A stretch of 64,000 nt of DNA from Acholoe squamosa (taxonomy: Eukaryota; Annelida; Polychaeta; Phyllodocida; Polynoidae), in the NCBI GenBank assembly GCA_949317995.1, contig OX439050.1, forward strand, positions 1,054,001-1,118,000. The letters are read 5' to 3'. The notes under the pieces are model-generated. The model saw only the letters and a program-made list of their open reading frames with translations, made no database searches and was not told the origin of the DNA. The position numbers and the translations under genes were made by a program. Of the stretch, positions 1 through 64,000 are shown piece by piece. Position 1 is the first letter of the stretch. Each line of letters begins with the position of its first letter.

Positions 1-688
1 GGTTCTATTGAACCTTTCTACTAGTCCGTCACTTTGTGGATGATACGGATTGGTCCTTGTTTTACAGATGGCGAGATATTCGCACATACTCTGCCAGAGA
101 TTGGATTCGAATTCCCTCCCCTGATCACTGTGAAGCATTAAGGGCACCCCAAAGGTGAGTACCCAACCCTTCACAAAAGCTTCCGCACAAGTGACGGCTT
201 TATGATCCGGAAGTGGGAAGACTTTAATATACTTGGTATAATAGTCACACACTACCATCATGCACGTATTGTCATTCGGCGTTTTATTTATTCCGCTAAT
301 GATATCAACTCATATCCGGGCGAACCGTACCCCGAATAGTTCTTGGGATAAAGGCAACTTACCGGGTCCGTGTCCGGGTTTGTTATTACAACAATCTGGA
401 CAACTAGCCACCCATCGGAGTAAGTCCTGCGACATACCCGGCCAGTAGTATCTTTTTGAGAGACGAGCTACAGATCGTTTCTTCACAAAGTGACCACTTG
501 TTCTGTGTCTGTGACAATAATACACAGACACAGCATGGCAGATGGAACGACAACTTGTATCTGTTTTCCACCATTATTACATGGTTTCCAACGGTACAGT
601 ATTCCTCTCTTGACCTCTAACTCTGTCCATTGGGCTAGAAATCTTCTCATTTCCCTATTCTCCAGCGAGGCTATAGGCCTAGCTGGAC
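1..688 (-). pseudogene. Gypsy A pol, integrase part
   Basis: Minus-strand reading gives the integrase zinc-binding region (YYCHRHRTSGHF ... CPDCCNNKPG) followed by the start of the DDE core, closely matching the integrase of Gypsy C. Integrase would insert the cDNA copy into the genome. The rest of the domain lies beyond the left edge. The part nearest 688 abuts a solo LTR, and the upstream pol resumes at 2042. It is a fossil fragment of a broken copy. Confidence 0.85.
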
Positions 689-692
689 ATAT
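689..692 (+). repeat. Target-site duplication ATAT (left of family-2 LTR)
   Basis: ATAT lies directly before the LTR and is repeated directly after it (2042-2045). The interrupted Gypsy A sequence supports this as a 4-bp target duplication. Confidence 0.75.
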
Positions 693-2041
693 TATCATAT
701 ACCATTTTATTATTCCATAAATTCTAACATATTAGTGTATTAATCAAAGAATATCGATGAAATTAATACATAGGTTGGTTCTAAGAGCTATAAGAGCGCT
801 CAAACTTTGTATAAGAGCGTTCATGCCCCACTGCACACCAAACCAAGTCAGTTAGACAGAGTTTATGACATCAAAGGGTCCGACCTAATGGTCCACTGCA
901 CAGTATAATAAAAATGAGGGTCTCAGTGTGCGACCTCATGGTTCAGTGCACAAACTAATAACTTGTAAGTGAATGCAAACGGCCGTTAGGGGTGCCTGGG
1001 CACCACAGACGCCGTCATGAGTGTCTGAGCACTCTAAGGACTGAACAATGGGTTACATAAGCACGACGCCATAACAGTCCGGTTGCTCTAGCGTCGCTCC
1101 TGAGCAAGCTAGGTCAAATATCAAAGCATTTATGAAAAGCCCATAATTAGACGGTCAAAATGAGCCCAACATCAAGGCGGAACTCCCATTATTAAGGAAG
1201 TTACGCCATGGAGACTGAATCGACCTCCGAGTGCACTACAGACGAACCGACACGAGTTACGCGCCTATCCAGCGGGTATTATAAACTTGGCATATTCAAC
1301 TCTGCCCATGCGCAAAATGGCGGTTATAAACGCATAAACGACCGAGTTATGAGGGTCTGAAGATGCAGAACCGACCAAGACAAAGGGGGACACAGCGGCG
1401 CCCATGGGGGTCCTTTGTCCCCCTGTGACACATGAAAGACTCCCCTCAAACAATTGTAGAGTTAGGCAGATGCTGCTGGCTCCAGTCAGTCTGGAGGTGC
1501 TTTTCCAAGATTTGCTACAAATAGCCTGTCTGCACCTCCAGGAGGACAGATCACCAAGAACCACTCCAGAGGTAACATCTCCAGTCATCTCCTGCTACCT
1601 GCTATACCACTGCACTATGGTGAAACTATGCTAGACAGGCATTGGTTTCCGTCATTAGTGGCCAGAGGCTATCTTCCTCAAGACATCCACCAGAGGGTAA
1701 AGTTATTCATTATTACATTATTCCTCTAAGCAGCAGGCCAGGAGCTAGGTGTGGGAACCCACCTAGAAATATGCTGGACATTGTATTATTATTACCTCAC
1801 AGGTGGAGTGGAACTGAACATTGTACTTTATAAATTACTGTATGTTTACTGTATGTACAAATTACCTACATACTAACTACTGTATGATTGATATTTCTTA
1901 CATGTTGCCTAAAGCTGAATAAACCAGTGATAACTGGAAATAACACTATTTATAAGAGCCTTGAGATAATTACACTATATACCACTAGTCTTATGATATT
2001 TCTCATATGACAACTTGATCATGCCAATCACTAGTATGACA
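693..2041 (+). mobile_element. Solo LTR, family 2 (copy 1, 1349 bp)
   Basis: A 1.35 kb non-coding block flanked by ATAT on both sides and inserted in Gypsy A pol. It is repeated almost entirely at 14403-15744 and partly, inverted, at 16197-16746. A polyadenylation signal AATAAA near 1918 gives the plus orientation. No coding region lies inside, which fits a solo LTR left by recombination. The ends read TATCATATACC ... GTATGACA, so only the 3' end shows a canonical CA. The parent internal region is not in this window, so the LTR assignment is inference. Confidence 0.65.
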
Positions 2042-4182
2042 ATATACCCTTTGGTACTAATTGTAGGAGCCTAGCAGTAACCGAGTCAGCTTCCTGGAAG
2101 TTCCTTATGCATTCTAAGGACCAATCCAGGACACTGCCAATACGTGTTTCGAAAGGAATTCGAATCGAGGCTGCTACTGCTCTATGGATCCCACAATCAG
2201 TACAATTCGGATTTTTACATTTCCGAATTGGTATTCGAGATAAGGCATCAGCATTCACGTGCTTATTTCCAGCACGATGCTGTATCTGGCTATTTTCTAG
2301 TCCGAATTCTGACAGATCTCCCTATCATTCCTTCGGCATCCCGGAAGTTTAATAATCATCTTAAGGAGGAATGATTCGTATGTAATGTAAAGTTGGTTCC
2401 CCATAAGAAGTGTTTAACTTTTCGGTATACACCACGACAGCTAATAATTCACGTTTAGTTGTGCAACAATTTCGCTGCGTTTCACTCAGTGTGTTGCTAG
2501 CGAATGCAATCGGAACCTCCAATCCACCCTGGACTTGGGAAAGGGCTGCTCCGATACTTTCATTGCTAGCATCCGCATCCAGTATGAAATGCCCATCCTC
2601 GGATGGATATTGCAGTACTGGAGTACTCGTGAACAAGGCTTTTAATTTTTGGAAAGCTTGTTCTTGTTTGGTTCCCCAAGGGAACTTATCCTTTCTACTT
2701 CCTTGGGTCCATGTCGTTAAGATTTGTAAGGGATAACTTACCCAAGAATAATTTGGTATAAAGTCTCTGTAATATGAACAGAATCCCAAAAATGACCTTA
2801 CTTCTTTTGGATTTTTCGGTACACCCCAGTCCGTTACTGCCTGAATTTTCTCAGGATCAGCTCTTATTCCGTCATCAGATATTATTCAGCCCAAATAATT
2901 TATGGACGTTTTAAACAAATTACATTTCTTAGGTTTAAGTTTTAAACCGTTAGATATTATTCTCTCTAAAACTAGCTTGAGGTTTTGTAAGTATTCGTCA
3001 AATGTTTTACCGAATACTATAACGTCGTCAAGGTAAACTAGGCACCTTTTCCATAATAGATCGCTCAAGAGTGTCTCCATCATGGCTTAGAAGGTTGCCA
3101 GGGCATTACATAAGCCAAAAGGCATAACATTATACTGGAACAAACCGATATGACTCGAAAAAGCGGTCTTTTCCATATCATCCGGGTTCATTCCTACCTG
3201 CCAGTATCCGGACTGCAAGTCCAGGGTACAAAACCATTTTATTACCTCCCAAGGAATTGATTGTTTCATCAATCCTTGGCAATGGGTACAAATTTTTCTT
3301 CGTTAAACCATTTAGTTTCCTATAGTCTATACAGAATCGGATAGACCCATCCTTTTTAGTCACCATACATACCGGACTACTCCAAGGACTGCTAGAGGGA
3401 ATTATTACATTCCGTTCCAACATCTTAGCTATTTCGGCTTCCGCTACCCTTTTCTTAGGTAGGGGAAGCCTCTGATACGGGATCTTAAAGGGCAACACCT
3501 CTCCCGTGTCAATGGTATGTAATACCCTCGTGGTCTTTCCGAGTGGTTCACCCGGTGCGGCAAACGCTTTCTGATATTTCACCAATAATTCTTTAAGTGT
3601 TTCTTTCTTCGAAGGATCCTCTAAACTCGTATCCTCATACATTTTCTTCAAATCTTCGGTCCATTCCTGCTCAACAGTTTCAACCGGAAGGTTCAGGGAA
3701 CAACTAGTCACTGTTTCAGCCAATGTAACGGTACCAAAAATGGATCCCTTTTCCAAATATAACGTCCTGTTACCTGTGTTGGAAACTGGTATGACTGACC
3801 AAGCCCCATTGGCTACTATCTTGTCTACCGATTCCAATCCTATAGCAGCCAGCATAACCATATCCGGCTCAATTACTGCATCCTGGTCCCTTTACTCAGA
3901 ATTACTCCGAACCAGAACATCACAGGCTACTCCCGCAGGTATCTTTACAGTCTGAGCGACGGACGCCACACTGCTGACTTGTCTTAATACATATTGTACT
4001 TTTACAGGATAAGGATGCTTCACACTCAGCTCACCCGTTCGCGGGTCCAAGACTGCCCCATACAGTGCCGCAAAGTCCAATCCCAATATCCCTTCATCCG
4101 CTATGCCGGCAATCGTAGTGGTTATCACATACTCGTGAGTACCCTCAAATTGCAATTTCACATACGTCCTACCATATGTTTG
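2042..4182 (-). pseudogene. Gypsy A pol, RNase H, RT and protease parts
   Basis: Read on the minus strand this holds the second half of the retropepsin domain (GILGLDFAALYGAVLDPR near 4050), a linker, the reverse transcriptase with its YLDD active site near 3030, and RNase H (ILDADASN near 2580) ending in the HxNADALSR signature near 2250. All align by eye with the intact pol of Gypsy C. The copy is broken at several places and interrupted at both ends, by the LINE on the right and a solo LTR on the left. Confidence 0.9.
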
Positions 4183-4797
4183 CATCTTTTTTTTAAGGAA
4201 CAATTTAACTTTATTTGGCATTTTTCAGGTATGATGAGGTTACATAAATTCTCTTTGACCTTCTGTCAGGTTGGTCCATTCATTTACATGTTCTATTAGT
4301 GGTGTATCACAGTCGTTACAAAGTGTATTTACGTAAGTACATTGCTGTAAGTATGTATTTTATCACAACATTAGAGATTGTACAATTTAATTTACTCGAA
4401 AAGTCAAACACCTCTGGATTTTATACATTTGTACTGTGCCAAATAAGTTAGGAGGACACTTCAGTGGAACTGATGTTATGAGTCCCCCCTGTTAGTATTT
4501 TAGATAAAATATAATCAAAATTGATTAGTAATTAATCCAACTATAACATGTGATTTGGAGATAATCAGAGACTTCTATTTGAAGATTTTGGAAGTTATAA
4601 ACTATTACCATCAGTTGTATATAGTGAATGTAAATGTACAGTCAGAGGGTGGACCACAAATACTGAAATCCCTGGATCTTTTTCAGAATTACTTGCATCT
4701 TCTTTTACATACTGGTCAATGAAATAACACATAGATATAATCAATTGGTCATAGAAGATTTACAGTAGATTGTTAATATAATTAACAATCTACTATG

Positions 4798-5022
4798 GTC
4801 AGGGTTTATAGCAGATGGTACATGGAATAAAAGCATTCATTTAACAACACAAGATCATATGTTTTAAGGGCAGCTTCACAAGTCTACCCCTAAGTATATA
4901 GACGATGGTCAGGGTTTATAGCAGATGTAATAATAAGGTACATGGAATAAAAGCATTCATTTAACAATACGAGATCATATGTTTTAAGGGCAGCTTCACA
5001 AGTCTACCCCTAAGTATATAGG
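4798..5022. repeat. Direct repeat in LINE 3' UTR (two units of about 110 bp)
   Basis: The block starting ATGGTCAGGGTTTATAGCAG and ending CCCCTAAGTATATA occurs twice in tandem (about 4794-4903 and 4906-5022) with few differences; the second unit has a short extra AATAAT segment. It follows the ORF2 stop and belongs to the 3' UTR, where LINE RTs usually recognise their RNA. Confidence 0.8.
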
Positions 5023-5845
5023 TTTCTTACATTTACTGGTATAGTTTTGAACATGGACAGTTTGCTTTTACATTTGAAATCTTTCAAAATTTCAATTTGT
5101 GTTAAAGTTCTATCTATTTCATTCCATAGTTGTGCTGTTAGAACTTCAATCGAGCTCTCGTAAGCAGCTGTGTTTATGATATTATATTTTAATACAGGAT
5201 ATTGTTGTAGTCTAGTGTTTCTCGTAGGTGGTTTACAAAATTCTTTTATCTTCGTTCTTTTGAAAGCTAAGATTCTTAAATGATGTAATCTTCTGTTTAC
5301 AATATAGGGAAGGCAAGCTTCTTGATGTATAAAATCAGTTGATGATAATACAGGCAATTTTAAGCAGCACTTTAAACATCTGTTTTGTATGGTTTGAATC
5401 GAGTTCAGGACAGTATCATTTGATTTATGGTATAATACATCTGCGTAATCAATTACCGGTATAATATAGGATTTATAGATTTGTAGCATGTATTTAGTGG
5501 GCACATAAGATATTATTCTGTATAATAGATAGGACTTAAAAGATATGGACTTAATCTTCTCTGAAATGTGCTGTTTAAAAGTGAGATCATAGTCTAAGGT
5601 CACACCTAAATATTTGAAAGAAGGAACAAAATGTAAGCGTTCACCATTTACTTTGATTTGGACATCATGTAATTTCAGTTTTTTATATTTCTGATCACTT
5701 GTAAAAAGCATTAATTTTTTTTTTTTTCATTCATTGTTAATTTATTGGTGGCTGACCATTGGGCATATGATAACAAACTGTCTTGTAAGTATGGTGACAC
5801 TTCTAGTATATTGTTCCCACTTACATACAAAACTGTATCATCAGC

Positions 5846-5849
5846 ATAC
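5846..5849 (+). repeat. Target-site duplication ATAC (left of family-1 LTR)
   Basis: ATAC precedes the LTR and recurs at 6525-6528. The undisturbed LINE codons (TTG TAT GCT GAT) contain the site once, which confirms a 4-bp duplication. Confidence 0.85.
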
Positions 5850-6524
5850 TGTCAGTAGACCGTTATAGGTATTGTACTTATCATATTTATTTTTCATCTT
5901 GACTCTACCATGTAACCCAGTGTCCGAGTCTACCCACAAGCCAAACCATACCAAAGACCAAAGGCTGGCGGTGTCAACTGCACTCAGTGACCCCGCCTCC
6001 TCCCACTGGAGGATACGCCGTCAATCACAAGCAGCTCGCTGCATGCTGGAAATTCCTAGCAGACAATGTTTAGACCAACTCCTCCTGCTGGAGGACATGC
6101 CCATTGATCATGAGCAGCTCACAGCATACCGGGAATTCCCAGCAACTCTATTTAGAACTATACTGAACTCTGTGAACCCCAGTGCTATGTTTGGGATCCC
6201 CCCTACATACCTGCACTGGAGTTCCCCAGTTACTATATTTAGCTCACCTGATACTATTTTTAGGATGAGCTGGGTGAGCAGCTCCTCCTACAAATACCTG
6301 TGGAGGGAGCAGCTCACTCATCTTTCCACCTTCATACTTCATACCTCACACACTCACGTGAGACCCAAGCCCTTGGCTCAAGGGCTAGGCTTGGACACTG
6401 TTGGGCACCTTTATACAGTATCACCATATATACCTCGTGGACTTCTATGAATAAAGTGGATATCAAACTGGCTTCCTGATTCGTCTGTATTCATCCTTAT
6501 TTATCATTTACGGACTCGTTGACA
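5850..6524 (+). mobile_element. Solo LTR, family 1 (copy 1, 675 bp)
   Basis: It begins TGTCAGTAG and ends GTTGACA, the TG...CA ends of an LTR, with a 4-bp ATAC duplication outside. It has an AATAAA near 6450 and no gene, so it is a solo LTR in plus orientation. It lies exactly in the YADD codons of the LINE reverse transcriptase. A second copy is at 20671-21427. Inside are two units of a repeat with the GC-rich block CTCCTCCTGCTGGAGGA, which can form a hairpin. It is a fossil; the parent family is unknown. Confidence 0.82.
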
Positions 6525-8841
6525 ATACAATAAAGTCTTCACATTGTTATTATCTACATATATGTCGTTAATATATATTAAAAAAAGAAGAGGACCTAAA
6601 ATACTACCCTGTGGTACACCACATGTTATAGGTAAACTAGTTGATACGTATCCATTTGCTAAGACTTTCTGTGTTCTATTGCTCAGGTATTCACTTATTA
6701 ATAATAGATTTTTTCCAATAATACCATATTTTTCAAGTTTCTTTTTCAAAATAAAGTGATCAACGCAATCGAAAGCCTTTTTTGTATCTATAAAAGCAGC
6801 CAGGGTCACATGACCTTCATTTCTATTTCGTAATATGTCATTTGTCAAAGTACTAATAGTATCAACTGTGGACATTTTTTTCCTATAACCTCCTTGAATT
6901 TTTGTAAGTATTTTGTTTGATTCCAGGTGATTTTCTAACTGAGTGTGTAAAATCCTTTCAAGAACTTTACCTGGTATAGGAAGTTGACTGATGGGTCTGT
7001 AATTCGATACATCTGATAAATCACCTGATTTAGGTAACGGAGTGACCTTGGCTGCCTTCCATGATTTGGGTATATGACAATTGGTAATTATTAAATTTAA
7101 CAATCGGGTAAAATGTGTTATCTGGGTTTTCACCGCTAATATGAAGACATTAGATGATATATTTTCTAAGACAGAGGATTTGTTCTTATTCATCGTATCC
7201 AAGGCATTGAGCACATTTTCATCAGTAATAATAAAATCATTCATCACCTTGTCACAGACCTGACCTGTAAAATTCCATGGGGTATTTATCTTGTAAGCTA
7301 AATTAGGACCTATGTTTGTAAAAAACTTATTTATAAAATTGGCTGTCTTATCTTCTTTAATATTGGTACATTGATCATCAGTAAGGTTAATGGAAGAACT
7401 CTTACTTTTTCCCAGTGTAAGGTTTTTCATGGCTGACCAGAATTTTCTTGCATCTTTGATGTTTTTATTGAGTTCGGAGACAACAAAAGCTTGTTTTGCC
7501 CTTTTTAAATTTGTACTACAGTTATTTTGCAAGATTTTGGCATTATGCCAATCTAAAATATTATTTGTTTTCTTGGCTTTTCTTAGTGCATTATTTTTCT
7601 CAATGATTTCTGAAATAAGTTCTGGTGTTAGCCATGGTTCTTCCTTGAATTTAATATTGAAATTCCTAATTGGGCATAGAACATCAAGAATACTGTTAAT
7701 ATTATCTTCAAAAATCTGCCAGCAGGATTCAATGTCATTGCAGGCATCAAAATTTTCCCAAGACATTTCTATAAAGTTCTGTTTAAAAGTATTTTCATTG
7801 AATAATTTGTATGAACGTCCACTAAAAGTTCTTTGTTTTCTCTGTACATACTTGGTCTCTTGAGGCTAACATACACAGCTAAATGATCGCTTAGATTTAA
7901 GGTAGCTACTCCAGATTTTTCAACTATAGTAGAATTTATAAAAATAAGATCAATACATGACATTTGACTCTTATTCTTGTGGATTAATTAATTAGTTGCA
8001 GCAGGCCAAAATCTTGTAAGGTGGAAAGCAGGTAATCTTTTGACAAGGTATTTTCAAGCATGTTGATGTTAAAGTCTCCAATCAAAAATACTTCACAGTT
8101 TTCAAGATTTTCAATTTTTGTCAGTGTGTCTTTTAAGATATTCACAAAATTGTACTTGTTCCCTTCAGGTGGCCTATAAATATTAGCTACCACCATTGAT
8201 TTGGAATGTTCTCTCGATATACTTAGCCATTGTATTTCCACATCAATATTACTTACATTAAAATTTGAGAATTTTTGACTGGAACACCTTATACCCTCTT
8301 TAATATATGCAAATAAACCTCCTCCTACTTTATCGTGTACTCTATCAAATCTATAGAGGTTGTAATTATTAAAAATATAGTTGTCGCTTTTATCAGCATC
8401 AGTCAACCAAGTCTCAGAAAAAAGTATTAAATCTATACCTTGATTTTGTAATTCGATGCATAGGTCAACAATCTTATTTCTAATGCTCTGGGCATTAAGA
8501 TGTAAAATGCATTGACCTTTAGTATTTATAAGAGATGGTATATAATTATACAGTATAAGTATTCTTATTACAACAACACTTAGGACCACCCTCAGTCTCC
8601 TCAATACAACTATTCATTAAAACCATCTTATGACAGTCTATTCTTCTCGCAGGTAGTGGACCTTCGTCTTTATGACAGTCCATACCAATTGTTGTTAGCA
8701 GTACAAGATAGCATGTGGTGGTATCTATGCTCTATATACTTTTGGTTAGAGTCTCCGAAATGCAGACATGTAACAAAAAATACATTTTAAATCTACAATC
8801 AAATCAATAGTTTTATGTACATTTTTACATAGTTTGAGATC

Positions 8842-10575
8842 CTACAAGTTTGTGGAAGTAATGGAGTCGTTGGGATCAGCTTTTGAGTCATCACTATCAA
8901 TATCTACCACTGAGTGATTATCATCAGATTCATCATTATCAGTAGCCTCAGACTCATTGTGAGTTGAGTTTTTTTCACACTTTTTTGTGTGTAATTTATC
9001 AGCCTCTGATTTTTTCTCAGCTTTTTTCCTATTCTTCTTGTCTTCTGGGTTGGTGGTGGATAGATTTTTGGACGTACATCCTGTGTAGGTAGTAGCTCTC
9101 GAGTGCCAGCTGCTGTAGCTGGTAGAGGCGGTGGGTCTGGGATTTTTCCACAAGGTGTTGGTGGTATTGGTAGTGTTTCAGTCTCTAGTGTTGGGGTTGG
9201 TGTTGGAGCTGGAGCTGGTGTTGGAGTAGGCAATGGCTGGTGTAGGTGTTGGCGTTGGTGTTGTCGCAGGCTTAGTAGGTGGTGCAAGTATTTCTGCCCT
9301 AACTTTAGCCAGAAGTTTCCCTAGAATATTACCACCTTGAACATCGTTTTCACATAGGCTGGCAATATTTCCCATGTGTCTACCTACCCCATAGATGGGG
9401 TGATAGGTACACTCATACAGGTTTCCTATGGTCTTTTGAAGATATTTACTACACTTGTCAACTTTAAACTTCAGCTGAAGGCATTCATAAATGAGACCAG
9501 TAGCATTTTTAGACCATTCTGCGGTTGGTTTGATCTGTTTTCCTATCTCCATCATCTCGAAGGGATCATCAGTGGGCAAAATATCATTAGCAGCCTTTCT
9601 GTCATCGACACTTAGGGCCTTGGTGTGCTGTATTGCTTGCTCAACTGAACTATATGTTTGTCCTTTGTATGTGAAGTCACATTTGTACAGTTTACTCAGG
9701 ATGTGATGGGGTCCTTTGAAGGCTATGCCATCTTGAGTTTTGATCGTGTAGGCTTCTAGCAAGTTTAAGTCATATGGTAGGCAGTGATATCATGGTGGGA
9801 GTATGATTTTTTTTCAATGATCAGTACTCTTTGACGAAGTTTGACATCAGTTATCCCCTTCCTTTTGGCCAGAAAGAAGAGAGCGCTAAGATCATTGTAC
9901 TGTTTTGTTTCAGTTTTTGTGAGCTCGTCCATCAGTGACACACCTTTCCATGCAGATTTTTCTGTATACATCTGCTTTAATACCACAATGTGCCAATTTA
10001 AAGACTATAGTTCTTGGCCTGGTCTGAGTAGGATCATACCTCCCCAATCTGTATATGGAGTCTACTCTTTCATTGCCATATTTGAATCCTAAGTCTTCAA
10101 ATAATGTATCACAAACTTTGCAAAGGTCTTCTTTGTGATTTTCTGGGAACCCTTCCATAAGTAGGGTTTTTTTCCTGTCATCTTCCTCGAATTTCTGAGT
10201 GGTTTTCAGAAGTGATTTAGTGAGTCTATTTGCAGTATTGACTGAAGTAGACATACAATCAACCCTCTCTTTCATAGTGTCAACTTTTTGGATAGCCTCA
10301 TTGGCCATAGGCTGAGGAATGTCTAGTCTATCTGTGAGAGCCTTAAGAATATCACTCGTAGTTCTAGCATTTTTTTCATTTTCAGCAACTCGTTTTTCAA
10401 GAGTTTCATAGTCTTCTTGGAGCAAAACAGTATTTACTGAGGTTAAATCATGATCACTTTCAAGTTCTATTAGCCTTTCTTGTAGACCATTTACAGCTTC
10501 AATAAGGTCCTTTACTGTAGCTTTGTTTGACAGATTTTTAATACGAGCCCTTCTACGTGGTTTCCCCATTGTCAC
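8842..10575 (-). pseudogene. LINE ORF1: coiled coil, RRM-like region and NADAR domain
   Basis: The reading starts MGKPRRRARIKNL at 10569. A coiled coil fills about 10520-10230, then comes an RRM-like stretch (TLLMEGFPENHK ... RPRTIVFKL, 10170-9990), the common make-up of LINE ORF1 RNA chaperones. Next, 9720-9286 is a NADAR domain (YbiA-like; known members are N-glycosidases on ADP-ribose-type or riboflavin-pathway substrates): CDFTYKGQTYSSVEQAIQ with the conserved Glu, a central W, YGVGRHMGN, and GGNILGKLLAKVRAEIL. A Pro-Thr linker and an acidic tail (DNDESDDNHS) follow. Frame changes near 9955 and 9800 and an in-frame TGA near 9178 break this copy. The coiled-coil and RRM readings are by eye; the NADAR match is strong. 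Confidence 0.82.
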
Positions 10576-10611
10576 TGATGTTTACTCGCAGAAGGTTGCT
10601 CAAATTACATC

Positions 10612-11150
10612 AGCGGTGATCAGATAAACACTATTACACTTGTATGACAATGTACATTTAGTAATATTACTCACAAGAGTCAGAATCCACGAAAAACAAT
10701 GAATTCCAGTCGGTACGTTTGTTTACCGGTGTCCATTCATGGGCGCTGCCATATTGGATTTTTCTGTGCGTGTCGCTGAAGTTTTGTTTACCTTGAGTCT
10801 CTCTCCCTCGTAAAGGATATGGGCATTTCTGTCTATTCCTGCCTATTCCCTCGAGTCTCTCTCCCTCGTAAAGGATATGGGCATTTCTGTCTATTCCTTC
10901 CTATTCCCTGTGATCAGATAAGCACTATTACACTTGTATGACCATGTACATTTAGTAATATTACTCACAAGAGTCAGAATCCACGAAAAACAATGATATC
11001 CAGTCGGTACATTTGTTTACCGGTGTCCATTCATGGGCGCCGCCATGTTGGATTTCTTTGTGCGTGTCGCTGAAGTTTTGTTTACATCGAGTCTCTCTCC
11101 CTCGTAAAGGATATGGATATTTCTGTCTATTCCTGCCTATTCCCTGTCTG
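10612..11150. repeat. Tandem 5' UTR monomers of the LINE
   Basis: A block starting GTGATCAGATAA is repeated with a period of about 296 bp (10614 and 10910). Inside the first unit the segment CTCTCTCCCTCGTAAAGG is duplicated again with a period near 56 bp. Such stacked monomers upstream of ORF1 recall the promoter monomers of some L1 families; a promoter role here is inference. Confidence 0.75.
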
Positions 11151-11262
11151 TTCATACAACTTACTGTCCATTTTGAAACATGTGGCTCATGTCTGAATCT
11201 AATAAATCAATGATTTTCTTCAGAGCTCCACCTCACGCGTTCTACTCGACGGCGGCCATCTT

Positions 11263-12926
11263 ACTACCGTCAGCCGTCTGGGCGTTTCCTCCCAATAGGA
11301 GAGTATCGCGCACATCCGGTATAAGATCCGCTATCTTCCGAGAGACACAGGAATGGCTAGCTCCTGTATTGACAAGGAATTCAGCGGGTCTTCCATTGAT
11401 ATTAAGCGAAACATACCACCGCCTTCCATGCAACATGGAAGGTACATCAGTTATTGCAGAATCCTCATTATTCGCATCCGGGTCCCGTCCACATCCTTTT
11501 AAGTATTCCAGACAAGGATGGCCCGGGGGTAGGTGAGCACTACCAACTCTGGCCAAAAAACGACCTCCTACCTCCAATCCGGTACCGGGTTTCCCCTGTG
11601 CTCCCTGGGCACTTGTCATACCGGATTCCCCAATCATCTGAGTGGGCTCCTCAGTATTGGGCGAATGTGTTACTCCATTCGGATCTGCACCACTGCTGGT
11701 GGTATCATGGCAAGTGACTTTTCTGGGACCCTGTTGCTTGCCCGTAACAGAATCCCTCTCTAGTTTTCCTTATCCTCTATGGTAGAAAAACTCATCCGTG
11801 TTCTATACACCGGTTTCTCTGCCACACATTCAGCAGTGAAATGGCCTAACTCTTGGCATCTGTAGCACCGTCTCTGTGACTTATCTACCCTTGGGCTTCG
11901 CAGAGCATCCGTTAACCGGGTAACCAGATTTTCCATAAAATCTCCCAGAGCAGTCGATACTGCTACTTGAGGAGTAGAGAATGTGGGTAACTGTGGCACC
12001 GGTAATTGTGTTACCGGTTTCTGCAGCACCGGTAGCTGAGGTGCTACGGGTAACGCATCTCCAATAGGTTTTTGGAAGTTTGTTTTCTTCTTGAAACCTC
12101 CCTTTTGGTACCTTTTCTGCTGATAATATTTACCGGCAATTTGTACTGATCCGATATATTCTCCATTATCATCGGAGGTATATTCATAATCGGAGTCCAT
12201 TGGACTGGACTCAACCGCAGCAGTGTATTCCGGTATGGGCGGATCACTTTTTACTGCTGAAGCTCTTGCAGGGGGTGCATTCGCACCTAGCAACCGCTTC
12301 TTTCTATCATAATTCTCAATAGCCAAGAACAGATCATTGAAGGAAGTATCATCCTTCCATTCATCCTAGGCCACAATCTTATGTTCCGAATCACGGAGTC
12401 TGGCAATGAATTGAGTGAATAACTCTTGTATCCAGCATTCATCGTCGTATTCCCAATTAGGCCTAGCTTCAAGTAGGTCCTGTAATTCTAGCCCAAAGAC
12501 CTTATGTGCTTCTCTGGGTTTCTGTGTCCGTCTTTTAAATGTGATCCAAGGATCTTCTCGGACAATAGAACCGAATAGGTAGCAACCACACTTTAACAAT
12601 TCGTCATAGGTACCCTTTATCCCATATTCTTTTCTCCATCTGTTCAGGGCTACTTTACCTCCCTTACTAAGCCAGCAGACTAAATACGGTAATGCTTCGT
12701 CTTTAGTCCATCTGCTACAATTTACCTCATCTACAAAGATCTGGTAGTTGTCTTTCCAGGGTTCATTCGGATCGTATGGTGGAGGTATTGGAGCCATATG
12801 ACGCGCAGGATTGGAACAGCCCCTAAGCCGATTGGCTTCCTTCAAACTCCAGTCCATTACTTCGACACCATCGGCTCCTTTACGATAGTGCCACCACTGC
12901 ATGAGCACATCAGGGAGGAGACTCAC
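11263..12926 (-). pseudogene. Gypsy A gag and start of protease
   Basis: Minus-strand gag starts at about 12926 and includes a capsid-like region (WKDNYQIFVDEVNCSRWTK, RRTQKPREA). A basic, Pro-rich linker follows, then one CCHC zinc knuckle (CYRCQELGHFTAEC near 11850) for RNA binding. Further down, a retropepsin start (RRWYVSLNINGRPAEFLV near 11400) continues until the LINE insertion at 11256. The whole aligns with gag and protease of Gypsy C. It is a broken fossil copy. Confidence 0.88.
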
Positions 12927-13526
12927 ATCTCACTCCTGACACACCTTCACTGTCAATGAAATTATCAAAGTATTAGAAAAAAAAATTTAGAAAATATACA
13001 CAGCCACTTGTTGATGTATAATATGAAAATCTATGGTATTCTCACAAAATCGATGATTAATGCGCGCATATACGCGCAAAATTGCGAAATTGCAAATTAA
13101 AAATTGTAAATTGTACAAATCCAACATTAATATACATGAATGCAGGTAGATAACTAGGACAGTTTTTGTACCCACTGGCACTTGTATACTATACCAAGAT
13201 TTACTTAAAGTAACACACCTTTAGGTATCCAAGAAAATTGTTGGAAAAATGAATGAAAAAAAAAAAAATAAATTTTGTTGAGAAAAATTGTTGACATGAA
13301 AAATGTTTACTTAAGATACTCACCAAATAATCTCTTTCAGGGACACATACTCAAGAAGGCTAGGGAAAAGTCAATTAAGCAGCGGCCCACTGCCGAAATT
13401 GCCAATTAATACACCCATATAGCAAAATCAAAGAGTAACTCAGAGACAAACAAGCCTATTGTACATGAAGTACTTTGTTTTTCCGGTCCTCGGAAAAATT
13501 TGTCTCAAATCCCAAAAATTGTATAG
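12927..13526. other. Non-coding leader of Gypsy A, nothing else recognised
   Basis: AT-rich sequence upstream of gag A. It should be the 5' untranslated region and possibly part of an LTR, but I could not find a primer-binding site or LTR boundary. I see no gene. Confidence 0.4.
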
Positions 13527-15744: not shown

Positions 15745-16196
15745 ATAGCAATCGATTCCCAATCCCTGAATGCATTTACTATTATTAAAAATTTCTTGCA
15801 TTCCGGGAGACATAGAAGAATGCCTGTTCATTTTCTTAGGCCTTCCTCCGCCTCCTTGATTAGCACCATCTGGGGTATTACCCCCACCTCCTGGTCCTCC
15901 CGGTGGATATCCACCACCTCCGGATCCTCCTGATGGATAACCTCCGCCTCCGGATCCTCCTGATGGATAACCTCCACCTCAGGATCCTCCTGATGGATAA
16001 CCTCCACCTCCGGATCCTCCTGATGGATAACCTCCACCTCTGGATCCTCCTGATAGAAAACCTCCACCTCCGGATCCTCCTGATGGATAACCTCCACCTC
16101 TGGATCCTCCTGATGGATAACCTCCACCTCCGGATCCTCCTGATGGATAACCTCCACCTCCTGATCCTCCTGATGGATATCTACCACCTCCGGGTT
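15745..16196 (-). repeat. 30-bp minisatellite, Gly-rich coding potential on the minus strand
   Basis: About ten head-to-tail 30-bp units (core GGATCCTCCTGATGGATAAC, about 15898-16196). Read on the minus strand it stays open for all units and gives GGGGYPSGGS repeats, then a non-repetitive basic stretch (RPKKMNRHSS). The array lies between family-2 LTR copies 2 and 3. It could be a Gly-rich tail of a retroelement protein or simply a minisatellite whose length happens to be divisible by three. I do not assign a function. Confidence 0.6.
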
Positions 16197-16746
16197 TGTC
16201 TGTAGCGCATTCGGAGGTCAAAATCGTCCCAGTTGCATAACTTCCTTAATAATGGGAGAACGGGCTTGATCGTGGGCTCATTTTGACCGTCTAATTATGG
16301 CAATTACATAAATGCTTTCATATTTGACCTAGGTTGCTCAGGAGCAACGCTAAAGTGACCGGAAGGTTATGGCTTTGTTACTTATGTAACCTTTTGTTCA
16401 GTCTTGGGTGCTCAGACACCCATGACAGCGTCAGTGGTGCCCAGGCACCTGTGACGGCCGGTTGCATTGACTTACAAGTTATTATATTGTGCACTGGACC
16501 ATGAGGTCGGTCTCTTAGACTCTTAAAAGCATTATATTGTGCAGTGGACCATGAGGTCGGACTCTTTGATGTTGTAACCTATGTGTCTTTGACATAGCTG
16601 GTGTTCAGTGAAGCATGAACGCTCTTCTAGAATGTATGAACGCTCTTCTAGACATTCTAGACCTTCAATGTATTAATTTCCTATATATTCTTTGATTAAT
16701 ACAGTAATATGTTAAGATAATTGGAATAATAAAATGGTATATGATA
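16197..16746 (-). mobile_element. LTR family 2, truncated inverted copy (copy 3)
   Basis: The minus strand from 16746 matches the first 500-odd bases of the family-2 LTR (TATCATATACC start). The match stops at 16197 where the Gly-rich minisatellite begins. Orientation is opposite to copy 2. Divergence from copies 1 and 2 is visibly greater, so it is older or of another subfamily. Confidence 0.65.
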
Positions 16747-20666: not shown

Positions 20667-21431
20667 ATACTGTCAGTAGACCGTTATAGGTATTGTACTT
20701 ATCATATTTATTTTTCACCTTTGACTCTACCATGTAACCCAGTGTCCGAGTCTACCCACAAGCCAAGCCATACACATAGACGAAAGGCTGGCGGTGTCAA
20801 CTGCACTCAGTGACCCCGCCTCCTCCCACTGGAGGATACGCCTGTCAATCACGAGCAGCTCACTGCATGCTAGAATTTCCTAGCAGCTATGTTTAGACCA
20901 ACTCCTCCTGCTGGAGGACATGCCCATTAATCACGAGTAGCTCACTGCATGCCAGGAATTCCTAGTAGCTATGTTTAGACCAACTCCTCCCGCTGGAGGA
21001 CATGCCCATTGATCATGAGCAGCTCACAGCATACCAGGAATTCCCAGCAGCTATATTTAGAACCATACTGAACTTTGTGACCCCCAGTGCTATGTTTAGG
21101 ATCCACCTACATACCTGCACTGGAGTTCCCCAGTTACTATATTTAGCTCACCTGATACTATTTTTAGGATGAGCTGGGTGAGCAGCTCCTACTATAAATA
21201 CCTGAAGGTGGAGCAGTTCACTCATCTTTCTACCTTCATACTTCATACCTCACACACTCACGTGAGACAAGAGCCCTTAGCTCAAGGGCTAGGCCTGGAC
21301 ACTGTTGGGCACCTTATACTGTATCATCATCTATACCACGTGGACTTCAATGAATAAAGTGGATATCAAACTGGATTCCTGATTTGTCTGTATTCATCCT
21401 CATTCATCATTTACGGACTCATTGACAATAC
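20667..21431 (+). mobile_element. Solo LTR, family 1 (copy 2, LTR 20671-21427) with ATAC flanks
   Basis: TGTCAGTAG...ATTGACA, 757 bp, flanked by ATAC at 20667-20670 and 21428-21431. It matches 5850-6524 along its length, but the GC-rich repeat (CTGGAGGACATGCCCAT ... AGCAGCTCACTGCATGC) occurs three times instead of two, which explains its greater length. AATAAA near 21354 gives plus orientation. Non-coding fossil. Confidence 0.82.
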
Positions 21432-22752: not shown

Positions 22753-23428
22753 GTATCTATAGATTACAATGATCAAAATCTTTTCTCTATGCTGCTTTTA
22801 TTGTTGCTCTGTATACCAAGAGTTTTGTTTTGTGATTTTTTTCTTTGTATTTAACTTATTTCACTAAGCAGACAGAAACAGTGAGGGTGGTATTTCCCAG
22901 TCATTACAAGGCTCTAATAAAACTTCACATGTTCGGGATATTTCTCAACTTGAACAGTTAATTTCCTGATCAAGAGGGTGTCACAGGTATTCATAGTTTG
23001 TTTCTCAAAAATATCATTTTTTTTATCTGAAGCAAATATACACAAACATTCAACTAATTGGTTCAGGCCAGATTTTCATCAAGATTCTGACAAGAAATTG
23101 GATGACAAGAGTATTGCTGCCGATTATGTGCCGGGCCTTAGCTTTGCAATCTTAACTTACCTGCCCTACTGACAAATGAGCTAACCTTGGCCATTTGGTG
23201 CAGAGGAAATCTACCCTGCTACAGTCAGGTTCTTCTTGAATCACACTCTCTTTTGAAAATTCAGGCTATCTAGCCATTTTAGGATTTATATATATAACAT
23301 CAATACCAATGGCATGGTGGTATGGTTGTCGTTATTCTATATGTCTATATTGTAGACAAATAATTAAGTGTGCAATAGGCTGATATGGAAATGAACCAAA
23401 ATAATAACTCTTTACTCTGACATTTCAG

Positions 23429-24262
23429 GTAAATGTGAATGCTATCAGGAAAGATGAAATCAAACCTTTTGGACAGCAAAGTAGCATCACTATCGTAACA
23501 GCATTTGTTAATATTAAATTTGGGAGTAAATTTCCACATAAAGTTTACCTAAAATGGATGACTGTGTTCAGGCGACTCACCAACCCAGTAGTTGCCTTCT
23601 TTTCAGATGATGAAGATATCAAGATATTTACAAATCTCCGTCAAAGCATACCAGAATCTGCTACAAAAGTAATCAAATTTCTAAAAAATGACAGTTGGTC
23701 TTTTTCTATGAAGCCATCCATAGCACAAGTTTTCTCAGAGGAGTTCTATCCCAAATACTATCCAAACACAATTCATCCTGACTATGCATGTACTATGAAT
23801 GCAAAGTATGAGTTTGTAGAACAGGCAACACGTGATAATCATTTTAAGACAGATTTCTTTGCTTGGATGGATTTGGGGTATTTGCGGAAGCTTGTTGGTC
23901 AATCAAGTTCTACCTTGTTACTTAAACTGCCACCAAATTTCAATAAAAGCTGTGTGGCATACACACAAGTCTATAATAAAAAAGACAACATCATTACAGC
24001 TGAAGACATTGTCAGAACAAACTCTGTATGGGTTGCTGGGGGATTCTTTTTAGCAGCACATGATGTGATGCTGATGATGGTTTCTCAATACAAGATGTGC
24101 TTAGAAAGGATGTTAAACATGGGCTGGGTGAGCACTGACCAACAGGTCCTCTACTATATGTTCCAACCACAACGCCCATGTTTGACTGAGGTTCAGATCC
24201 AACCATACCATGGTAAGTGGTTTCACCTTGGATTACTCTGCCTGAAAGGAACCAAGCAATAA
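23429..24262 (+). CDS. HtrL/YibB-family protein, last exon
   Basis: The acceptor CTGACATTTCAG precedes an open frame of 277 codons ending in TAA at 24260. Family signatures by eye: SSITIVTAFVNI at the start, a YLKWM...NPVVAFFSDD segment, MNAKYEFVEQATRDNHFKTD followed by FFAWMDLGYLR, then AGGFFLAAHD and STDQQVLYYMF. These are the conserved blocks of the HtrL_YibB family, known from bacterial LPS loci and many invertebrates and thought to be glycosyltransferase-like; the reaction is not established to my knowledge. The frame is clean, unlike the transposons around it, so this looks like the one functional host gene here. AATAAA overlaps the stop codon (24258-24263). Confidence 0.78.
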   Translation, partial: VNVNAIRKDEIKPFGQQSSITIVTAFVNIKFGSKFPHKVYLKWMTVFRRLTNPVVAFFSDDEDIKIFTNLRQSIPESATKVIKFLKNDSWSFSMKPSIAQVFSEEFYPKYYPNTIHPDYACTMNAKYEFVEQATRDNHFKTDFFAWMDLGYLRKLVGQSSSTLLLKLPPNFNKSCVAYTQVYNKKDNIITAEDIVRTNSVWVAGGFFLAAHDVMLMMVSQYKMCLERMLNMGWVSTDQQVLYYMFQPQRPCLTEVQIQPYHGKWFHLGLLCLKGTKQ

Positions 24263-26899: not shown

Positions 26900-29800
26900 C
26901 TAAACACAAACACAAAGAAAGGACATTGCAACCTTGTCCTTTGACACCTTTTGAGTCAGGCTATCAACAAGATATAACAATACCGCGAGACTTTGCCAAT
27001 CGCCTCTGGATTTTATGTCGATAAGATTCCAACCGATCGAGGACAGGTAAGATGCTCCGCCTCTGCGGAGGGAATGGGTGGACACTTTGCCCACAATACC
27101 ACACAATTCTGACAGGCGATGGAGTTCCGTGGCAAAGGCTGAATAAGTCATTGGTCGTAAGCGTCCTCGCTCCCAGTACTGAAACACTTCCTGACCTGCC
27201 CCCAACCCAGTGTGGTCGATGAGCCGGCGAACATAGGAGGTGACGCATAAAGGTGATCCTGGTATGATGCTGAACGGGATTTTAAGCACCCGCTCACCAT
27301 ATTGAATCGTCTTAGTACGAGGCAAGGTCAGGAGTAGCCCCCAGTCATGGAAGGATAAATCCTGGAGACATATAGCCTTGGAGGAACTTGTTACGTGTGC
27401 TTTGCGTAGAAGGCCGCGAAAGGCAGTAATGGCTGCCTTCCACCAACACAAATGAAAAGACACTGACATGTCCAGATGCTTCTTGGCTCCTAACATTGTC
27501 CGTTTGACTATGAAATTGGTAGCATTGACTGGAGCATAACCGTGGAGGTGCTGGAGGTATGACAGGGCACTTACATACTGTTCAATGCTTGAATACTTAA
27601 GCCTCCGGGCTAGATACGCCACATATAAACAAACACTCTCCTGGGTACATGGAAGTGGCTGAATGTCAAATAAGGCACAAAATTCATGATAGTCTTTCCA
27701 CCTGGACCTGTATGATCTGTATGAGCTCTCAGCCAGGGCTTGGTCTTGCAGACCCTGGGCCTCCTGACGTAACAGGGACAGACCTACAACACATGGGAAA
27801 GGGAGGTGAGACTGCTGCAACAATTCTCGCAGGAGGTCCATGCTGACATTATTACGGCTCCTACCAGAGCTCAACATACTGCAAACCTTGGTATTATCAC
27901 TCAAGATGAGGATGGTAGTGTCCCTATACACTGGACCCCACCTGACCAGGGCCATCAGCACAGGCCAGAGTTCCTGGATGTTGATGTCATGAGACAAATC
28001 ATCAAAGGTAGGGACCGGGAAGAAATGGTCAGCATAGTAGGGGAGTGCTGGTATGTACTTGTAGAACCAGACACCATAGAGCCAATCTCCCATGTGGTAG
28101 GCCCCGAATCCGCAGGACGATGAGTCACACAAAATAACAGCAGAAGGAGTCTTGGGGCACAGAATTCTGGCCTTGCCGTTAAAGACCCCCGCAAAGGCTA
28201 TCCACCACCTTAAGTCTGCTCGGAACTGATCATTTAGTCTCACTCTATGGTGTGCTTCCTTGACGCTATTGGTCAAGTTGATCACTCTGCGACTGAAGGT
28301 ACGGCCACCCCGAACCACAGTGGAACAACGGCCGAGGATGCCCGCCAGCTGCTGAAGTTCGCGCTTAGTGGCAGTTTTCTTCGAAGCAAAATTATACAAG
28401 GTCTGATAAAGCATAAGCAACTTTTCACTTGGGAGGCTAATTTCCATCGCCTTGCTGTCGACCATGATACCGAGGCAGACTGCACTCTGAGATGGGCAAG
28501 TGACTTTGGGCCACTTTACATGGAAGCCCATACTTCTCACCACTGAAATCAGGCCATTTTGAACATAGGCACATTGATCATAAGTGGGTCCCATAACTGT
28601 CAGGTCATCGATATAATTAGAAACCTGGTAGAAACCTCGGCGATGCATACACCTGACAATCCAATCTCCCAACTGTGTGAACAGATATGGGGCACACCTG
28701 AGACCGAAGGAAAGGACTATGTCTTCAAATACTTGCTCACCCTCTCCTAAATCCCATCTGAAGCATTGGTAAGAAGCATTATCTTTATCAATGTTCACGC
28801 TCCTATAGGCTTGAGATAAGTCAATAGAACAAATATAGTCATAGGGATTAAGGATCTCCGTGAGGTAATCTACCCCTTTGTACGTGAAAGTATCACAGGT
28901 GTGGTCCATGTAGTTGTTTATGGATCTGTTTAAAGGCCTTTTACAGTCAGTGATTGGTCTGAGGGTGCCATCCTTTTTCCTGATTGCACCCAGACTATGA
29001 ATGCACCTAGGTGAGTCGATAGCTAAGGTGACCTTGCCTTCCTGCAATTCTCTGAGAATTATGTCATTCATTTCTACATTGAATTCATCATCCAGAATAC
29101 TGCAGTAGTTGCTACAATCATAGGAGTCTATGTGTGTGTTGTCTACTATAATGAAACCACTGTAAACACCAGCTAGTACAAAATCATCTTTAGCACACAT
29201 ATGGCCCTTGTATCTGTAGAATTCTGCAGCTAACCTACAAGGGCTAAGCAGAGATCGAACAGGTCCAATTTTGTGCTCGCATGCAAAAATACTGAGGACA
29301 CAGTCTCTGTAAACTACAATTGGTTCAGTGACATTAGGTATGTATACAAGGCATACAGGTGTGTTACCACACACTGGAACGGTATCTGCTACATCAATGA
29401 CAACAACATTACTAACACAAGTATCAGGATCACATACACTGCTAGTAGGGTAGCCATCACCGGCAGGTGACGCACCGTCACCCACAGGTGACAGACCAAC
29501 ATTGATATCATCACTACATACAGGGTCAGAGAAGACATTTTGTGCATCAACACATTCATGGCTGTCACCCGCCAGGAACAGTCCCGTATCCGTAACACTG
29601 CCATCACATATAGAACCTCTGGCACAGACAGTAGGGGCACCTACATCAACATTGCATACGAAATTGTTACAACTATCAACACCAGCACTGGGTTTAAATA
29701 GGGCACATTCTTGAAAATTGGGTACAGCTGGGTCATAATGAACAACATTGGGTACATTGACACTGGCAACACCTCCAATGACACTGGGGACCCCCACATT

Positions 29801-30064
29801 GGCACCAGGGACACATTCATTGACACCGGGAACACAATCAATGACACCGGGAACACAAAAGGCAGGTGGTGGAGGGTTAATAATGTCAACATTGACCAAG
29901 TTCAGGTCTGGATTTGGGTGTTCTCGACCGATTTGAGCTATTTCGATATCATTCCCCCCAAAAACAGGGGTGATTTGATCGATTCTGGGATTGGCATAGC
30001 CCGAAACCTCTCCATTTACACACAAATCCGAGAAATATCGATTTACCTTAGCGTCTTCGTGCAT
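26900..30064 (-). CDS. Ngaro-type pol: RT, RNase H, tyrosine recombinase
   Basis: A 1054-codon frame. After a long N-terminal Val/Pro/Asp-rich region (residues 1-270) comes a reverse transcriptase with YICSIDLSQAYRSV, LSFGLRCAPYLFTQL and active site YIDD near residue 486. RNase H follows (VILCDSSSCGFGAY near 650, LSDNT near 755). From about 800 to the end is a DIRS/Ngaro-type tyrosine recombinase with an N-terminal SAM-like helical part (YRSRWKDYHEFC) and the catalytic HSLRRGG box near 997, followed by the active-site Tyr. Such enzymes integrate circular cDNA without a DDE integrase. The RT resembles DIRS-superfamily enzymes. Confidence 0.88.
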   Translation of the reverse strand: MHEDAKVNRYFSDLCVNGEVSGYANPRIDQITPVFGGNDIEIAQIGREHPNPDLNLVNVDIINPPPPAFCVPGVIDCVPGVNECVPGANVGVPSVIGGVASVNVPNVVHYDPAVPNFQECALFKPSAGVDSCNNFVCNVDVGAPTVCARGSICDGSVTDTGLFLAGDSHECVDAQNVFSDPVCSDDINVGLSPVGDGASPAGDGYPTSSVCDPDTCVSNVVVIDVADTVPVCGNTPVCLVYIPNVTEPIVVYRDCVLSIFACEHKIGPVRSLLSPCRLAAEFYRYKGHMCAKDDFVLAGVYSGFIIVDNTHIDSYDCSNYCSILDDEFNVEMNDIILRELQEGKVTLAIDSPRCIHSLGAIRKKDGTLRPITDCKRPLNRSINNYMDHTCDTFTYKGVDYLTEILNPYDYICSIDLSQAYRSVNIDKDNASYQCFRWDLGEGEQVFEDIVLSFGLRCAPYLFTQLGDWIVRCMHRRGFYQVSNYIDDLTVMGPTYDQCAYVQNGLISVVRSMGFHVKWPKVTCPSQSAVCLGIMVDSKAMEISLPSEKLLMLYQTLYNFASKKTATKRELQQLAGILGRCSTVVRGGRTFSRRVINLTNSVKEAHHRVRLNDQFRADLRWWIAFAGVFNGKARILCPKTPSAVILCDSSSCGFGAYHMGDWLYGVWFYKYIPALPYYADHFFPVPTFDDLSHDINIQELWPVLMALVRWGPVYRDTTILILSDNTKVCSMLSSGRSRNNVSMDLLRELLQQSHLPFPCVVGLSLLRQEAQGLQDQALAESSYRSYRSRWKDYHEFCALFDIQPLPCTQESVCLYVAYLARRLKYSSIEQYVSALSYLQHLHGYAPVNATNFIVKRTMLGAKKHLDMSVSFHLCWWKAAITAFRGLLRKAHVTSSSKAICLQDLSFHDWGLLLTLPRTKTIQYGERVLKIPFSIIPGSPLCVTSYVRRLIDHTGLGAGQEVFQYWERGRLRPMTYSAFATELHRLSELCGIVGKVSTHSLRRGGASYLSSIGWNLIDIKSRGDWQSLAVLLYLVDSLTQKVSKDKVAMSFLCVCV

Positions 30065-30385
30065 TTCTCCGTCCGGCCGTTGCCATCTTGGATTTGAACA
30101 AGATGACAGCGGGCCGATGGGAAACCCACCAAAATTTGGAAAACTTGAAGAATTAACAGAGTTGTTCGACTCAAAAGCACTTAATCTCGAACAAGAAGAA
30201 GGAATTTGACTCGCATTTTCAATAATATCATGAACACGATCGACATTGTCGATTGCTACATCCGGGCACCGTTCTTCTCCGCGTATGCAAATGAGCTGAG
30301 AGGCGCCTTTGGGGGCGCTCAGATTTATTCCGCCCGCTAACTCACCGGCCGCGTCAGACCGAGGGGCGCTGATGGGTGTTTCCAG

Positions 30386-46180: not shown

Positions 46181-46320
46181 CTGGAAGGTATAGAGTACAT
46201 GTTAGTGATAAATCATGGCATATTGAAAGGATGAAGTCAATTCAAGCAGTCTGATTATTTCATGCACTGTTACACTGTCAATATCTTTCTAATCAAAGAA
46301 ATATACTCTACAGTTGAAAA

Positions 46321-51647: not shown

Positions 51648-52146
51648 AATTAATTGGCAAGTTTTGTTGGACTCCTCCCGAAGGATTCGTCCAACAGAAA
51701 GGCTTTTGGGGGGTTAGCTAGGCTAACACGACAGCTACAGGCTGTATAACCGCCGACAAATAACTAGAGCAAAAACGGGTGGCGTCTAACCACCACGAGT
51801 CCGCTCTAGTTATGACCAGTATGACGTCAGACCTCTCGTCTCGCGAGATCCCGCCATGGCTATCCGGTGACCTAGTTCCGCGCTTTCCCGCCACACCAGC
51901 AGCGCCACCTAGGGAACTAGATCCGAACCAACATTCGACTCGACATGTGAGACGCGACCTACTACCCGAGTGCTATCGTCTGGAGCTTAGCGGTGTATAC
52001 AACGCTTCAAAGCGAATGTACCGGTTAATCCGACCGCCACTCACGGGATACAGCCACCCGGGGAGGGCGCGTTCGACATCTCAGGCCGTGGAACGTATGT
52101 TGCCTGCCTATGGCGGACAACACGCAGCAGCTCGTTGTGTACTGAG
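51648..52146 (-). other. Spacer between pol and extra ORF of Gypsy C
   Basis: About 0.5 kb, no minus-strand frame. The extra ORF probably needs a spliced or separate transcript; I could not fix a splice site. Confidence 0.45.
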
Positions 52147-59442: not shown

Positions 59443-59472
59443 TGTGGCCGCGCACCACCCCCGAACCGACTG

Positions 59473-59484
59473 GTCACGGCACCA
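59473..59484 (-). other. Primer-binding site of Gypsy C, tRNA-His type
   Basis: GTCACGGCACCA on the plus strand, one base from the LTR, equals the 3' end of tRNA-His including CCA (from memory). Same site as in Gypsy D. Confidence 0.8.
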
Positions 59485-59485
59485 G

Positions 59486-62810: not shown

Positions 62811-62817
62811 ACATCGC
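62811..62817 (-). repeat. Terminal inverted repeat, right (ACATCGC)
   Basis: Inverse of 41381-41387; followed at 62818-62824 by the second TCAGTGA. Confidence 0.65.
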
Positions 62818-62824
62818 TCAGTGA

Positions 62825-63915: not shown

Positions 63916-64000
63916 AGGGCTGGGACGGCCCTACCGGGACCTTACCTAGTTCCCTCGAATCTACTGTCGTCTGATCAGGAGTGCCAGAGGTGCTGATACC

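Follow-up and report, generated by a model that had tools for sequence, protein, structure and literature searches.

We describe a retrotransposon carried by a 64,000-nucleotide stretch of the genome of the polynoid annelid Acholoe squamosa (assembly GCA_949317995.1, contig OX439050.1, positions 1,054,001 to 1,118,000, analysed at full length and referred to as the window). It is a long interspersed nuclear element (LINE) on the minus strand, and its first open reading frame (ORF1) encodes a domain confirmed as a member of the NADAR superfamily. The reading we favour, with a probability of roughly 0.45, is that an L1-type ORF1 protein (ORF1p) with a C-terminal NADAR would clear guanine-linked ADP-ribose from the element's own nucleic acid and so keep the template readable.

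The NADAR domain of ORF1

The frame map of the broken ORF1, which is collinear with four uninterrupted relatives, gives the following parts (window coordinates):

8842-10569 (-), ORF1, broken copy: coiled coil, RNA-recognition motif (RRM), C-terminal domain (CTD), NADAR and proline-rich/acidic tail
10183-10569 (-), N-terminus and coiled coil, aligned to the long helix 10-124 in the model of relative P0010
9958-10182 (-), RRM
9786-9950 (-), CTD, in a different reading frame from the RRM through a frameshift
9289-9711 (-), NADAR domain, from Pfam, residue mapping and fold
9642-9640, 9621-9619, 9516-9514 and 9414-9412 (-), key NADAR residues Glu, Lys, Trp and Glu
8842-9288 (-), tail, first proline-rich and then acidic, interrupted by an in-frame stop (9180-9178)

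The Pfam NADAR model (positions 9-162 of 163) matched residues 18-158 of the frame 9762-9178 (-) with an e-value of 1.4e-19 and 71.3 bits against a curated cut-off of 35.1. The domain has the YbiA/NADAR fold, matching 8bau and 2b3w, and score and fold together exclude a chance match. A first-pass annotation, made from the letters of the sequence, had placed a complete NADAR domain at 9720-9286 between a coiled-coil/RRM-like ORF1 and an acidic tail and had proposed the profile search of this frame; the domain (Pfam match 9711-9289) and both neighbours were recovered as described, the frame itself proved to be the NADAR-bearing fragment of a longer fused protein whose ORF1 is disrupted by frameshifts and a stop within the tail, and the motif YGVGRHMGN, present in the window copy, turned out to vary among relatives. 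The YbiA-type equivalog model TIGR02464 (cut-off 73.7) gave 68.3 bits for the window and 71.2 and 29.9 bits for two relatives introduced below, P0002 and the truncated P0003, and the domain is therefore assigned to NADAR and not to YbiA. NF053876, the model of a NADAR family anti-phage protein, matched weakly and far below its cut-off (e-value 0.013 for frame 9178-9762 (-), 0.0011 for P0002), and a tblastn of the NADAR frame within the window found a single locus and no second match.

Mapped by hand through the HMMER alignment (8bau chain numbering is two off that of its paper), E41, K48 and E117 of the window domain fall opposite E43, K50 and E125, which are catalytic in the Phytophthora enzyme; the window domain holds the Glu, Lys and Glu/Asp/His that are catalytic in the superfamily. 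Both glutamates and the lysine are present in 5/5 sequences (the window copy and four full-length relatives); P0002 has Arg in place of the lysine, and in P0003 the second Glu alone is readable. From these residues, the NADAR of this LINE ORF1 looks catalytically competent.

Upstream of NADAR the layout is that of a type II (L1-like) ORF1p, with a coiled coil, one RRM and a CTD by fold in relative P0010; as modelled in this relative, the RRM-like part resolves into an RRM of L1 type followed by a CTD. Pfam Transposase_22 matched neither the window ORF1 piece (e-value ≤ 1) nor the four intact relatives (e-value ≤ 0.1), and a search of the ORF1 core against PDB sequences (e-value ≤ 10) returned no L1 ORF1p and four hits judged to be chance (best e-value 0.74); divergence may hide the kinship.

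Relatives were sought among proteins of ENA contigs, and are called LINE proteins from the ORF1p core alone. The NADAR frame as query recovered one protein among 104 candidates (P0002, 50% identity, a NADAR plus acidic tail), and a two-sequence profile run on 3982 candidates recovered six distant NADARs along with P0003, which holds the C-terminal half of the domain followed by an acidic tail. The ORF1 query, with X at the breaks, retrieved four proteins from 3088 candidates (e-value ≤ 1e-3, 38-46% identity, 84-99% coverage): P0010 (527 amino acids, aa), P0011 (504), P0012 (644) and P0013 (511). All four run uninterrupted through coiled coil, RRM, CTD, an LPYGLN-like linker, NADAR and tail, P0011 beginning late within the coiled coil, and their NADAR scores are 76.5, 70.8, 76.0 and 63.4 bits respectively, beside 67.6 for P0002 and, below the cut-off of 35.1, 28.1 for the N-terminally truncated P0003. 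The acidic tails of six relatives contain 19-30% D+E. The NADAR domain is present at the same place in 4/4 full-length relatives, a count obtained with a query that itself held NADAR and from candidates of about 237-754 aa, and hence no unbiased census; its retention suggests that the element uses the domain. A one-off capture, which the first-pass annotation had named as the finding that would count against it, or a pseudogene fusion is ruled out, as the four full-length relatives found are uninterrupted fusions. These fusions also rule out a separate NADAR ORF behind ORF1, hinted at by the window stop before NADAR and the start of P0002 there, and a programmed frameshift in ORF1 is unnecessary because the full-length relatives read in one frame. 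Scans of IMG/VR with the NADAR motif, a full ORF1 profile (its patterns lying within NADAR) and a reverse transcriptase piece gave no relative, and those of GTDB genomes gave 17 pattern-matching stretches and, through tblastn, one bacterial locus (36% over 50 residues).

Across the window copy and the four intact relatives, the counts of invariant columns are coiled coil 6/120, RRM 26/77, CTD 17/64, NADAR with its linker 49/165 and tail 0/101; coiled-coil rows involving P0011 and tail rows have fewer columns, and P0002 and P0003, having no ORF1 core, stand outside the count. By these counts NADAR is conserved to much the same degree as the RNA-binding core, and the flanks drift. The window keeps 49/57 of the columns invariant in the relatives in NADAR, 26/30 in the RRM and 17/18 readable ones in the CTD, a level of loss that would fit a copy in decay or one that has diverged. 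In a tree that set six LINE NADARs beside seven further ones and excluded P0003, half of whose domain is missing, the LINE sequences fell on one side of a branch with support of 96/99, which is compatible with one acquisition of NADAR by LINEs; a single origin is not firm, since seven other NADARs were sampled and P0006 sat on a long branch.

The LINE insertion and its ORF2

The rest of the element comprises:

4189-11256 (-), whole LINE insertion, 5′ junction to poly-A end, its junctions set by the interrupted Ty3/gypsy protease frame
11257-11262 (-), 5′ copy of the AAGATG target-site duplication, at most 6 bp; its leading As could also belong to the poly-A
4183-4188 (-), target-site duplication AAGATG, 3′ copy
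10616-11145 (-), tandem monomers of the 5′ untranslated region (UTR), 294-bp period × 1.8 (Tandem Repeats Finder)
7769-8604 (-), APE-type endonuclease of ORF2, spread over two frames (8604-7984 and 7963-7769)
6504-7766 (-), ORF2 reverse transcriptase, interrupted before YADD by a later insertion
5010-5850 (-), remainder of ORF2 past that insertion, with YADD and the C-terminal part; 5711-5010 read in a single frame
4187-4215 (-), AATAAA signal (4215-4210) and poly-A run (4194-4187)

The LINE lies in a Ty3/gypsy-like element that stops at 11257 and continues at 4188, and when the flanks are joined without the LINE a single protease frame is restored, with AAGATG on both sides. From 11256 to 4189 follow the 5′ UTR, whose monomers hold an inner 58-bp repeat at 10791-10909 (Tandem Repeats Finder), ORF1, the APE-type endonuclease, the reverse transcriptase, the 3′ region, AATAAA and a short poly-A. 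An endonuclease of this type and a reverse transcriptase downstream of ORF1, with a poly-A tail and a target-site duplication, identify a LINE; from its junctions, the AAGATG duplication and its 5′ UTR-to-poly-A content, this is therefore a complete insertion of the target-primed reverse transcription type.

The ORF2 endonuclease scored 21.0 bits with Exo_endo_phos (e-value 3e-4), under the cut-off of 24.5, and RVT_1 matched ORF2 with an e-value of 4.6e-22. The solved structures nearest to the reverse transcriptase are LINE-1 ORF2p (e-value 9.6e-16) and then R2, with no other LINE kinds among the matches. A 20-residue motif of its catalytic region is unlike the compared L1 stretch, which suggests a clade other than L1/Tx1; such a motif is usual on the Jockey/CR1/L2 side. 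At 32286-33629 (-) lies a further, diverged reverse transcriptase of LINE type, which shares 38.6% identity with that of ORF2 over 166 residues.

Possible roles of the domain

NADARs are reported to strip ADP-ribose from guanine in DNA and, among the hydrolase families tested, to be alone in removing it from guanosine in RNA (PMC11543638, PMC11833690, PMC11125620), and to be inactive on phosphate-linked ADP-ribose (PMC11833690). The substrate range first proposed for this domain keeps ADP-ribose but narrows to its guanine-linked form on DNA or RNA, not the phosphate-linked one (PMC11543638, PMC11833690). Given this activity and the fusion to ORF1p, the most economical role would be clearing guanine-ADP-ribose from RNA or cDNA. 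ORF1p would coat the element RNA, and NADAR, being fused to this RNA-packaging protein, would stay bound to the RNA and, while priming proceeds, to the cDNA or the target-DNA strand; there it would hydrolyse ADP-ribose from guanine bases, and the template would stay readable when ADP-ribosyltransferases of the host modify nucleic acid that is foreign or not packaged. We infer an active NADAR, guanine-ADP-ribose on element nucleic acid as its substrate and a host enzyme as the maker of that mark; the element perhaps undoes a host defence in this way. Enzymes that ADP-ribosylate guanine are described in some invertebrates, namely pierisins, and CARP-1 in clams (PMC11209040), from which, in the literature found, the modification of nucleic acid in animals is known. 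NADAR domains also occur in invertebrate RNA viruses, including annelid and bivalve picornaviruses, where they are argued to counter host ADP-ribosylation (PMC9503650), and structural matches to our domain included replicase polyproteins of Ingleside virus and Wenling nido-like virus 1 and many phage and giant-virus NADARs.

The stronger form of this proposal, that the ORF1p of this LINE lineage is a nucleic-acid-guided eraser of host-added guanine-ADP-ribose on retrotransposon RNA or cDNA, is doubtful. If it is true, an undiscovered host defence restricts retroelements through ADP-ribosylation of their nucleic acid, and the retrotransposon answers with a counter-defence of a kind undescribed in the literature found; should the domain prove active, the element would point to ADP-ribosylated guanine in nucleic acid as a pressure on retrotransposons. 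The intact relatives provide proteins suited to direct assay on published substrates.

Several observations weigh against an eraser of guanine-ADP-ribose. The window copy is dead, because ORF1 carries a frame shift between RRM and CTD, a second before NADAR and a stop in the tail, and ORF2 a frame change within the endonuclease and an insertion of ~0.7 kb before YADD (at about 6525-5850, 90-92% similar to stretches at 20667-21431). Pyrophosphate contacts of 8bau, compared by eye, are partly lost: R79 is K75 in the window and K, K, A, S in P0010-P0013, R93 is A (V, A, A, E), W133 is Y (F, Y, Y, Y) and D130 stands opposite a gap. Since several contacts to the ADP-ribose pyrophosphate are not kept, the substrate of the LINE NADAR may differ from that of 8bau. 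In the E. coli C7 NADAR, changing the first Glu to Ala had a minor effect in vitro and changing it to Gln was inactivating, both failing in cells, so that retention of the first Glu counts for less than retention of the Lys and of the second acidic residue; K95R, the change found in P0002, was active in vitro and gave no rescue in cells (PMC11543638). YbiA and phage NADARs, active in vitro on the test substrate, left cells unprotected from DarT1 (PMC11125620). Finally, pairwise identities of RRM/CTD and of NADAR correlated weakly (Spearman 0.30, p 0.39, 10 pairs), and co-inheritance as one unit is therefore not demonstrated by that test.

The best placed of the alternatives, though unlikely, is that NADAR is a reader: its pocket would bind ADP-ribose at nicked, PARP-activated target sites and dock the ORF1p-RNA particle. 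PARP1 and PARP2 are described as collecting at LINE-1 integration sites, their loss reducing retrotransposition (PMC8535693). Some pyrophosphate contacts are unlike those of the solved hydrolase, and binding without turnover is thus possible, yet Glu/Lys/Glu are kept in the four full-length relatives (the same residues also touch bound ADP-ribose). PARP marks lie mainly on protein side chains and phosphate ends, which counts against this reading. So does the reported inactivity of NADARs on phosphate-linked ADP-ribose (PMC11833690).

A step of RNA processing or end repair in the life cycle of the element, free of any defence role, ranks next and is improbable; such processing of RNA intermediates is suggested for the Gypsy and oyster elements (PMC12477816) and NADARs are tied to RNA repair in some systems (PMC9503650), but the Pfam search of the window copy's ORF1 and ORF2 pieces and of the relatives' ORF1 turned up neither an RNA ligase nor a KptA-like or other repair domain, and NADARs are reported inactive on RNA phosphate ends (PMC11833690). 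We rate slightly lower again a scavenger of soluble NAD-derived immune messengers, as proposed for phage NADARs, which are argued to act mainly on soluble ADP-ribose derivatives (PMC9503650). The altered pyrophosphate contacts would allow a different substrate, but an L1-type ORF1p fused to NADAR in each full-length relative (by fold on P0010) points to a nucleic-acid-bound substrate, and the NADARs of eukaryotic RNA viruses are argued to target macromolecular marks (PMC9503650). Least likely is an inert hitch-hiker kept merely as an RNA-binding or folding module, for which speaks the partly changed ADP-ribose pocket, and against which stand invariant NADAR-and-linker columns in numbers comparable to those of RRM and CTD, with the catalytic positions among the residues kept in 5/5.

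Neighbouring elements and known systems

The Ty3/gypsy-like element whose protease domain the LINE interrupts occupies 1-4188 and 11257-12929 (-), its frame continuous across the empty site, with a zinc knuckle in 11760-12326 just under cut-off and an aspartyl protease in 11242-11637 over cut-off. A second such element (52150-57875 (-)) has an open pol frame of 1419 aa (protease, reverse transcriptase, RNase H, integrase) and a gag-like frame upstream, and a third, partial one seems by eye to be present at 62792-64000. The 1161-aa frame at 26903-30385 (-), with RVT_1 at 53.3 bits and tyrosine-recombinase matches below threshold, presumably belongs to a DIRS/Ngaro-type element. At 23408-24259 (+), amid these eukaryotic-type retrotransposons, lies a match to HtrL_YibB (PF09612, e-value 7.2e-17), a family described as bacterial, and a minisatellite at 15831-16217 encodes in-frame repeats of about ten residues (QEDPEVEVIH-like). 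Four long open frames, at 34455-36326, 48123-51713, 57643-59532 and 45070-46212 (-) (624, 1197, 630 and 381 aa), have no Pfam match at e-value ≤ 0.001, and Rfam and tRNA scans of the window gave no matches.

The ORF1p of L1 ends after the CTD, whereas that of the window LINE continues into NADAR and an acidic tail. Human LINE-1 ORF1p (2yko, 2ykp, 2w7a, 2ldy) has the coiled coil, RRM and CTD fold in common with about the first 270 residues of P0010, yet does not match the ORF1 core at sequence level even at e-value ≤ 10. The Phytophthora nicotianae NADAR (8bau) and E. coli YbiA (2b3w) share the fold of the window domain, and 8bau also the catalytic Glu/Lys/Glu; both were solved without an ORF1p part, and the pyrophosphate contacts of 8bau differ. 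Esterase-type ORF1ps (type IV, ZfL2-1), the enzyme-bearing kind treated in detail in the literature found, likewise bear a hydrolase domain at the C-terminus (PMC3905857, PMC4120745), and of the Repbase esterase ORF1ps examined in one of these sources none has an RRM (PMC3905857); in the window ORF1 the enzyme-like domain is instead joined to RRM and CTD and is a NADAR rather than an SGNH esterase.

The presence of NADAR in a LINE ORF1 is less novel than at first supposed and already in print, briefly: the ORF1 of Tx1 LINEs of Crassostrea gigas in Repbase is stated, in a short passage, to have a YbiA/NADAR-type domain (PMC12477816), and by that description these elements resemble ours. Tx1 is grouped with L1 under the label L1-Tx1 (PMC10294476), from which the window LINE differs in its reverse transcriptase motif, unlike the L1 stretch. 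Ectocarpus Gypsy elements also carry NADAR, but are of the long terminal repeat type, with the domain at the Pol N-terminus and best matches almost exclusively bacterial (PMC12477816). Exchange of whole ORF1s among LINE lineages has been proposed (PMC4120745). Among the open-access matches listed, NADAR and LINEs are joined in that one source only (PMC12477816), which does not imply absence from print elsewhere. As far as the literature searched goes, what is new is the resolved architecture of an L1-type ORF1p joined to NADAR, its conservation in uninterrupted relatives and the retained catalytic residues, as well as a NADAR LINE whose ORF2 motif is unlike L1. An enzyme-like domain on an L1-type, RRM-bearing ORF1p is a design distinct from that of the RRM-less esterase ORF1ps.
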